Of a stretch of 64,000 bases of DNA, positions 59,115-61,032 are shown piece by piece. The number at the start of each line of letters is the position of its first letter. The stretch's first letter is position 1. Where the stretch lies: the NCBI RefSeq assembly GCF_008329525.1, contig NZ_NPKQ01000001.1, positions 124,001 through 188,000 of the forward strand, read 5' to 3'. Under the pieces are notes generated by a model. That model saw only the letters and a list, made by a program, of their open reading frames with translations. It was not told the DNA's origin and ran no database searches. The DNA comes from Tardiphaga sp. P9-11. Lineage in GTDB: Bacteria > Pseudomonadota > Alphaproteobacteria > Rhizobiales > Xanthobacteraceae. The position numbers and the translations under genes were made by a program.

Positions 59115-59204
59115 TGGCGGAGAGGGGGGGATTCGAACCCCCGATGGGCTTGCACCCATGCCGCATTTCGAGTGCGGTACAATCAACCACTCTGCCACCT
59201 CTCC
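59115..59204 (-). tRNA. tRNA-Ser (CGA)
   Basis: The minus strand from 59204 to 59115 folds as a class II tRNA of 90 bases with encoded CCA. The acceptor stem GGAGAGG pairs with CCTCTCC, the discriminator is G, the anticodon arm is CCGCA-CTCGAAA-TGCGG giving anticodon CGA (codon TCG), a long variable arm follows (serine type), and the T arm contains GGTTCGAATCC. Its 3' end faces the gene-poor stretch at 57.4-59.1 kb. Confidence 0.95.
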
Positions 59205-59704: not shown

Positions 59705-60799
59705 TCAATCCTTGCCCTTCTTCGCCTTCTTGTCGTCCTTCTCTCTCTTGCGGTTGGTGAAGCGAGCATTGCCCAGCCCCGTTCCGATCGTCAACACGCC
59801 CCAGCGTTCGAAGTCTTGCATGAAGGGCACTTCGCTCAGACCTTGTACAACGCCGTCATTATGCATCAACACTGCAGTGTCGTGATCGCCGATCTGCGGA
59901 ATGCCTTCGATCAGCAAGGCCGGCAGATTGAACTTGCTGCTTTCCCAATTGCCCGGAAGATTCTGCGCTCCCTTCTCGATGGTGCCGTCTTCTTTGATCA
60001 CGCCGGGGCACGAAATGCCGATGAACGGCGCCAGCTTGAAGCCTTCTTTCTCGGCGGCGCTGATCAGATCTTTCAACATCTTCACCAGACGTTTCACCGC
60101 GCCTTCGCGCGTCGGCTCGTCATCGGCATGTTTCCAGAGATCGGATTTCCACACCGCGGCCTTGGAGAGATTCTTGGATTTCTTCCATGCGGTTTCGACC
60201 ACGCCACAACGGATGTTGGAGCCGCCGATGTCGACCGCGAGAATGCTGTCGTAACCTTCGAAAATCCACGACGGCGCCAGATGCAGGCAGCCGATCAGAC
60301 CGGCTTCATCGGGATGAAAACGGATCGGCACCAGATCGACCTTGAGGCCTTCGGCTTTAAGCATGATGTCGGCACGTGCAATCGCGAGCTCGCCTACGCG
60401 ACTTTGCCGGAAACCGCCGCCAACCACGATACATTCGGTATCAGCCCAGGATTTTGTCTTGAAGAAACGCCGGACCACGTAAGCCAATTCCTGGGCGAAC
60501 TCCTCGATCGCGCCATGCACCAGCGCTGCTGCCGGCGAATCGTCGCCGCGCAGAATCTCATCGAGGCTAGATTTGCTGATCTCGTTGGCGGCTTTCTCGC
60601 CGAGCGGATCCTCGCCGTTTTTCTTCAGCGGCTTGCGCAGATCGTCCAGAATTTTTTGAAATGCGCCCTTGCTCGCCCGGTCGCCGAGAAAGCCGTCATC
60701 GTCCTTCAACTCGATGTTGAAAGTATCCACGTCAACGGATGGCAGCCGTTTGGCACCATGATTGCCGATGCCCACGGTCGTCATTGCTTCTTCGGCCAT
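59705..60799 (-). CDS. ROK/glucokinase-family protein with circularly permuted motif order
   Basis: This 364-residue cytoplasmic protein contains the sugar-kinase motifs of the ROK family in rotated order. Normal ROK proteins begin with the phosphate-1 motif DIGGT and end with the adenosine-binding GGG segment. Here the C-terminal half comes first (AAALVHGAIEEFAQELAYVV near residue 90, IVVGGGF at 124-130, DEAGLIGCLHLAP near 164-175) and the N-terminal half second (AVDIGGSNIRCGVV at 188-200, ISCPGV at 262-267, MHNDGVVQG at 312-320, TIGTGLG at 337-343). A basic tail (KREKDDKKAKKGKD) ends it. The CxCGxxGC zinc site of many ROK members is absent. Kinase activity on a hexose is possible, since the acidic and phosphate loops remain. 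The start could also be the sixth codon. No sugar gene lies beside it. Confidence 0.83.
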   Translation of the reverse strand: MAEEAMTTVGIGNHGAKRLPSVDVDTFNIELKDDDGFLGDRASKGAFQKILDDLRKPLKKNGEDPLGEKAANEISKSSLDEILRGDDSPAAALVHGAIEEFAQELAYVVRRFFKTKSWADTECIVVGGGFRQSRVGELAIARADIMLKAEGLKVDLVPIRFHPDEAGLIGCLHLAPSWIFEGYDSILAVDIGGSNIRCGVVETAWKKSKNLSKAAVWKSDLWKHADDEPTREGAVKRLVKMLKDLISAAEKEGFKLAPFIGISCPGVIKEDGTIEKGAQNLPGNWESSKFNLPALLIEGIPQIGDHDTAVLMHNDGVVQGLSEVPFMQDFERWGVLTIGTGLGNARFTNRKREKDDKKAKKGKD

Positions 60800-61032
60800 A
60801 TTGCCCCTGCCAAACTAGAATCACACGATAATGCCCGGGGAGCCGGTTTGTTTCATCACCGCGCCAAGACGTCCGTTGACGCTCCCTTGCGCTGATCCTG
60901 CGCGCCAATTTCGACGATGCCGGTAGGATATCTTTAACTAACTAACCCCAGCAGCGCCCAAGTCACGACCTTTCCGCGATCGGTCTAACGATAAATTTAT
61001 CAGCGCAGGTAATTGTCTCCGCATTCATACAG

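Follow-up and report, generated by a model that had tools for sequence, protein, structure and literature searches.

Among the ASKHA proteins, ROK kinases have been studied in depth. Polyphosphate–glucose phosphotransferase (NF045942) has the ordinary motif order. The elements by which ROK kinases (PF00480; NagK, NanK, BglK) are recognized comprise DIGG[TS], CPG, a catalytic ND, GTGxG, an adenosine-binding GGG and a terminal D-AGL-G helix. For Plesiomonas NagK, excerpts of one study (PMC10031466) describe GlcNAc as bound by S78, N104, D105, E154, H157 and D187, with D105 acting as the catalytic base. The same excerpts report that the substitutions D6A, D6N and D105N abolish activity, that T132V lowers activity, that E154Q raises the KM for the sugar beyond 50 mM, and that the small N-terminal domain includes the C-terminal helix.

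Here we describe a protein family that shares all of these motifs with ROK kinases but carries them in rotated order. Unlike ROK kinases, its members lack the zinc motif and the sugar-contacting ExGH (127 relatives), and where the lid would be there is an N-terminal segment of about 75 residues, either a substitute for it or an altered form of it. Judged from sequence, the Tardiphaga gene probably encodes a ROK-type (ASKHA) sugar kinase that has undergone circular permutation in nature; the three-dimensional fold is inferred. A rotated motif order inside a known fold is also a feature of the cpRAS GTPase (PMC2430557, in excerpt), but the kinase belongs to a different superfamily. Among the matches listed from the open-licence literature we found no permuted ROK or ASKHA kinase, and in the excerpts matched, circular permutation and the ROK family are named apart from each other. 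What appears to be new is a branch of the ROK fold that is permuted and has its lid replaced.

The gene and its motifs

The gene lies on the reverse strand of the window, which is the whole 64,000-nucleotide stretch of Tardiphaga sp. P9-11 DNA that was analysed. Its parts are as follows.

59705..60799, minus strand: gene of the putative permuted ROK-type kinase, 364 amino acids plus stop, ATG start (open reading frame and translation)
60575..60799, minus strand: residues 1-75, N-terminal segment conserved within this family, standing where ROK kinases have the lid and zinc region (alignment A1, hhalign)
60254..60574, minus strand: residues 76-182, ROK C-terminal third with helices, GGG adenosine motif and DEAGLIG helix (hhalign, NanK models)
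60413..60421, minus strand: GGG, residues 127-129, adenosine motif (invariant in 38/38)
60242..60277, minus strand: residues 175-186, putative join of the old ROK C-terminus and N-terminus (optimum of the rotation scan; P176 invariant)
59771..60253, minus strand: residues 183-343, ROK N-terminal half, DIGGS...CPG...ND...GTGLG (Pfam ROK, hhalign)
60218..60232, minus strand: DIGGS, residues 190-194, phosphate motif (D190, G192 and G193 invariant in 38/38)
59855..59860, minus strand: N314-D315, motif counterpart of NagK N104-D105 (invariant in 38/38; NagK role from an excerpt of PMC10031466)
59771..59785, minus strand: GTGLG, residues 339-343, immediately preceding the new C-terminus (all five residues invariant in 38/38)
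59708..59752, minus strand: residues 350-364, lysine-rich tail (tail statistics of relatives)

The positions given for GGG, DIGGS, CPG (residues 264-266), ND and GTGLG in the initial annotation are correct, and across our 38-member alignment their core residues vary little or not at all. ROK is the sole Pfam family listed for the window protein, scoring 25.1 bits where the gathering threshold is 22.9; the match is to a partial model, residues 187-345 falling on model positions 2-137 of 294. With E-values up to 10 admitted, a ROK match is listed for 37 of the 38 alignment members. Among NCBIfam models the best match is polyphosphate–glucose phosphotransferase (residues 187-349 on positions 3-142 of 242, E = 8e-6), but the score of 25.7 bits stands far below that model's cut-off of 250.

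Relatives and their distribution

A collection of named genomes contains 308 stretches that match a pattern, 283 of which encode a relative. The best 80 of these 283 were kept; they are 75-96% identical and nearly all titled Bradyrhizobium, Tardiphaga, Rhodopseudomonas, Nitrobacter or Afipia, or are metagenome-assembled genomes with broader names. Loci L001-L096 comprise the close relatives, with L081 being the window's own copy, and L097-L128 the distant relatives, which are 46-64% identical and include one (L123) that by its labels comes from the window's own family. When the window gene is compared with two close kin, third codon positions account for most of the differences (75 of 94 in one comparison, 59 of 83 in the other).

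Within the window's order, Hyphomicrobiales, matches occur in 61 of 397 genomes (the window's included) and 19 of 141 genera, four of the 61 having fragments only. Near-full-length matches were found in 10 genomes from other orders of the class and in three genomes outside it, as well as in 204 of the 207 plasmid records with a match, mainly from Rhizobium (111) and Sinorhizobium (79). No relative was matched in phage records, and none is encoded by the 12 viral-contig stretches that matched a pattern. Two genomes of the window's family (G171 and G194) have a second full-length copy, at 72-73% identity. SM_b20472 was considered as the Sinorhizobium meliloti 1021 homologue and discarded, as a literature excerpt gives it as ornithine carbamoyltransferase.

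Evidence for a rotated order

We compared the family alignment A1 (38 members) with a profile of 34 ordinary ROK proteins using hhalign, the E-values of which apply here to one pairwise comparison. Residues 179-343 match ROK positions 1-141 (E = 9e-10) and residues 42-177 match positions 191-304 (E = 6e-7), such that the two matches stand in inverted order. Rotation of the family profile yields a single match, positions 4-332 to ROK 8-304, with an E-value of 1.6e-14. When the cut was moved along the profile at every eighth residue, the score rose from 69.8 without rotation to a maximum of 107.7 for a cut before residue 181-183. Shuffles do not reproduce these scores. The N half in the rotation test scores 53.0, compared with at most 25.6 for 200 column shuffles; residues 75-182 alone score 50.3 on ROK 209-304 (best of 60 shuffles, 23.0), and residues 182-350 alone score 74.7 (60 shuffles, up to 25.4). 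Conversely, ordinary ROK proteins rotated after GTGxG drop from a median score of 440 to 228 (the 21 of 34 that have the pattern).

The initial annotation had proposed that partial profile matches should appear in inverted order, and this is what we observe. The N part of the Pfam ROK model lies at residues 187-345 and the C part of the NCBIfam NanK models at residues 87-175 (model positions 207-285/291, E = 0.0014); the N-terminal parts of several NCBIfam ROK models likewise fall at residues 186-351. Searches of PDB profiles with the native and rotated alignments yield nothing beyond weak similarity, chiefly to ROK kinases and hexokinases.

A survey of homologues, also suggested at the outset, gives the same result sequence by sequence. 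At a domain E-value below 0.01, both halves are found inverted in 133 of 139 relatives, a set that excludes the copy in the window itself, a pair of fragment loci and a locus whose frame is broken. In the remaining six the larger half alone is matched, and none of the 139 has the normal order. Reversed and shuffled sequences give 0 of 139 each, and only one of 293 neighbouring proteins has a match, of the N type. Simple motif patterns occur in rotated order in 126 of 127 relatives; an apparent exception to the order, L099, is a pattern artefact in which a second HND stands just before the DEAGLIG motif. Only 20 of the 34 ordinary ROK proteins conform to the corresponding ordinary-order pattern, its GGG term probably being too strict, and for this reason the claim of a rotated order is based on the profiles. 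A search of 249 genomes with the rotated profile gives strong matches solely as two inverted half-matches. The other matches are weak (E > 1e-5); they include a fragment that accompanies a complete copy, as well as four full-length ordinary ROK proteins (L158-L161).

These data bear on whether the protein might simply be an ordinary ROK kinase whose motif order arises by chance or misalignment. The Pfam score barely above its cut-off would suit such a reading, as would the name "ROK family protein" that annotators mostly give among the listed plasmid matches that name the gene (Rhizobium, Sinorhizobium and Bradyrhizobium). It is nonetheless contradicted by the rotation scan and the shuffles, and by the absence of the normal order of ROK parts in all 139 relatives, which renders it extremely improbable.

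The two halves join in profile–profile comparison only, and not at the level of single sequences. Pfam applied to the rotated window protein reports no fusion, the match covering model positions 2-142 only with 26.5 rather than 25.1 bits, and with a ROK HMM of our own making rotation raises the score in 79 of 139 relatives while the median goes from 24.8 to 24.4 bits. This is likely due to an unrecognisable region between the halves. The same observations, halves that stay unfused in single sequences and an intervening lid that is not recognised, would also be expected of two incomplete domains, namely ROK C- and N-terminal fragments of different origin that perhaps form a domain-swapped dimer. 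We consider this quite unlikely, however, given that the recognised ROK stretches are complementary and non-overlapping (1-141 and 191-304) and that all 38 aligned members keep both motif sets unchanged. Furthermore, matches of half length or shorter are solely fragments, found in the four genomes mentioned above and as extras beside full copies.

A natural circular permutation with its new termini just after GTGLG, as the initial annotation had it, is thus supported by the profile–profile matches, the rotation scan with its shuffles, and the 133 inverted and zero normal orders. Because the arrangement is common to relatives in many bacteria, often together with a promoter of the general stress response, it seems to reflect a genuine rearrangement of an enzyme in nature and not a peculiarity of one genome.

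The lid and the N-terminal segment

The ROK C-terminal third, with its GGG segment and helices, is recognised in residues 76-182, whereas residues 1-75 taken alone are not recognisable as ROK. In hhalign, residues 10-60, 10-75 and 1-90 score no higher against the ROK profile than 60 shuffles do, so that no ROK lid is recognised in residues 1-90; the longer match nevertheless extends back to residue 42. The missing zinc site is confirmed, as the structural motif CxCGxxGC occurs in 0 of 127 relatives compared with 32 of 34 ordinary ROK proteins. The sugar-contacting ExGH is likewise found in none of the 127, and the pattern [GA]ExGH is present in 30 of the 34 ordinary proteins. ROK positions ∼142-208, which comprise the zinc site along with some of the sugar site, thus appear to be gone or unrecognisable. 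Because residues 1-75 stand at the place of the lid with no ROK match above shuffles, the protein seems to be more than a bare rotation, and the absence of these elements suggests that the break point lies within the lid.

Catalytic residues and proposed mechanism

Residues D190, N314-D315 and T340, the motif counterparts of NagK D6, N104-D105 and T132, are invariant in all 38 aligned members. Patterns for the catalytic ND and for the DxGG[TS]/GTG phosphate motifs are present in 127 of 127 relatives. Equivalents of NagK E154, H157 and D187 should have been in the lost lid. The old termini could easily have been joined, since the C-terminal helix of NagK is part of its small N-terminal domain.

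As the sequences show, the old C-terminal third (GGG and last helix) now precedes the old N-terminal half (DIGG, CPG, ND and GTGLG). A short linker connects the old termini, and the new ones lie after GTGLG, where the lid formerly followed. The lid, with its zinc and its sugar-contacting Glu and His, was lost or rewritten, and a conserved segment of ∼75 residues stands in its place. Most likely, the protein would bind ATP and transfer phosphate to a sugar or sugar-like hydroxyl by means of D315. The new N-terminal segment might close the active site, and the acceptor might be held by new residues of segment 1-75 together with the invariant stretch Q279-N-L-P282 ... W285.

The retention of the catalytic Asp and the nucleotide motifs in all 38 aligned members argues that the permuted protein is a working phosphotransferase. 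It might instead be permuted but catalytically dead, and serve as a regulator that senses sugars or nucleotides. Such a role could account for the NagK residues E154, H157 and D187 being without recognisable counterparts and for ExGH in 0 of 127 relatives, considering that E154Q alone puts the KM of NagK above 50 mM (PMC10031466, in excerpt), and the basic tail of the close relatives also speaks for it. The initial annotation took this tail and the missing zinc site to suggest a regulatory function. Among 95 close relatives the tail has a median of 25 amino acids, 46% of them K or R, whereas in the 32 distant relatives the median is 5 amino acids, with L109 and L110 among those that do have a lysine-rich tail. 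The basic tail is consequently not a feature of the family, and we set the regulatory reading aside because most distant relatives are without it. In addition, the 17 Pfam families listed for alignment members include no recognised DNA-binding family, and D190, T340 and N314-D315 are invariant in 38 of 38. A dead regulator is therefore unlikely, and a working kinase remains our preferred reading.

An EcfG-like promoter element

One further feature lies upstream of the gene.

60830..60854, minus strand: EcfG-like element GAAAC-N16-CATT, 55 bp upstream of the ATG (two mismatches to GGAAC-N16/17-CGTT)

The consensus GGAAC-N16/17-CGTT has been published for R. etli (PMC3892343), GAAC-N16,17-C/GGTT for Methylobacterium (PMC4814048), and GAAAC-N16-CGTT as one S. 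meliloti RpoE2/RpoE6 target (PMC6180224), all according to excerpts of these papers. The two-mismatch level of the window's element is reached or beaten by 238 of 777 background genes, and so the element is no evidence when taken alone. The relatives are more informative. An element with at most one mismatch to GGAAC-N16/17-CGTT lies no further than 150 bp from the start in 24 of 32 distant (11 exact) and 77 of 96 close relatives, compared with 34 of 777 other genes at the same loci and, when these stretches are read on the reverse strand, four of 32 distant and 12 of 96 close; many of the sequences are related, and these counts are not independent events. Exact matches to GGAAC-N15..18-CGTT lie upstream of 11 of 128 family genes, all distant, and seven of 767 other genes. 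None of the 96 close relatives has an exact match, their −35 element mostly reading G[CA]AAC, which is off consensus.

In a fresh set of ten members from other orders of the class, several of them pairs from one family, eight have an element within one mismatch (three exact), and one of the two that do not has a broken frame. None of the three members outside the class has an EcfG-like element, as expected if EcfG is confined to Alphaproteobacteria, which is said to be the case in an excerpt of PMC3892343. Four of five plasmid copies have GGAAC-N16-CGTT. The Bradyrhizobium plasmid copy L196 carries the exact GGAAC-N16-CGTT, seen in none of the 96 close-relative loci. At about −60 in close-relative loci (for example L025 and L085) the promoter spacer is conserved, often with GGTTCC, the reverse complement of GGAACC; possibly this is a divergent EcfG-type element.

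Taken as sequence evidence, these counts suggest that in Alphaproteobacteria the family likely belongs to the regulon of EcfG, their general-stress sigma factor, with less assurance for the window's own copy. Among the matches listed, open-licence excerpts that mention ROK together with EcfG, RpoE2 or the general stress response contain nothing on the permuted-kinase gene. The Rok of RpoE2-related excerpts is the Bacillus silencer and not a ROK kinase, and those that pair EcfG with the ROK family name SMa2004 and do not concern this gene.

Neighbourhood and a possible link to trehalose

The trehalose-phosphatase gene otsB is found near the kinase gene in six of 32 distant loci, four times in divergent orientation and twice (L107 and L128) upstream in the same orientation, and in none of 96 close loci, 34 ordinary ROK loci and 13 further loci; flanks differ among these, from ∼1.5 to 6 kb and less at contig ends. 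It also flanks the gene in three of six annotated plasmid regions viewed (two Rhizobium and one Shinella), and not in those of S. meliloti, Phyllobacterium and Bradyrhizobium. At L128 (3983-8947, minus strand) an otsA-like match, a PfkB kinase, otsB and then the permuted kinase follow one another on one strand, in what looks like a trehalose operon. The neighbour in S. meliloti carries the annotation of a peptidase from the NAGGN osmoprotectant system. Of the 30 neighbour clusters listed, none spans close and distant loci to any extent, one having a single distant locus; the largest distant-only cluster consists of five loci, the otsB loci minus L105.

Two other arrangements were observed. At L127 (2640-5535, plus strand) the permuted kinase stands between a BPD_transp_2 permease and a HAD phosphatase on one strand, the latter being Hydrolase_3 with a weaker match to S6PP. 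In the window, a tRNA-Ser(CGA) gene at 59115-59204 (minus strand) lies downstream of the kinase gene, and since the same tRNA is downstream in all eight close-relative loci checked, its placement there seems to be ancient and syntenic.

In the window's genome, otsB and otsA lie side by side on the same contig as the kinase gene, ∼600 kb away from it. No Pfam Glucokinase match was found in this genome at E ≤ 0.001, nor any Pfam ROK match at that threshold, a search that missed the permuted gene as well and may pass over divergent ROK proteins. Excerpts of PMC8092242 report that Bradyrhizobium diazoefficiens synthesizes trehalose from UDP-glucose and glucose-6-phosphate under EcfG control, and that Bradyrhizobium needs this stress-response branch for efficient nodulation. 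Most likely, the protein is a stress-induced kinase linked to trehalose metabolism, with a putative sugar substrate. Given the EcfG-controlled route from glucose-6-phosphate in B. diazoefficiens and the otsA and otsB genes of the window's genome, the likeliest single role might be to supply OtsA with glucose-6-phosphate under stress, a proposal that we put forward tentatively and in which the substrate is a guess.

Implications

A fuller account is conceivable, albeit somewhat doubtful. A single ancient permutation may have opened the lid, a new closing module may have taken its place, and the substrate may have changed, with the enzyme coming under EcfG control and feeding trehalose-6-phosphate synthesis; it may even be the only glucokinase-type enzyme of the window's genome.

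A permuted family that keeps its ATP-binding and catalytic motifs would amount to a natural experiment on the limits of rearrangement in the ASKHA fold. Having no recognisable sugar-binding lid, it may also show how a new lid can arise. For a gene that is filed as an ordinary ROK family protein on plasmids of Rhizobium, Sinorhizobium and Bradyrhizobium, our analysis provides a testable function, and it points to a possible overlooked kinase in the general stress response of Alphaproteobacteria.
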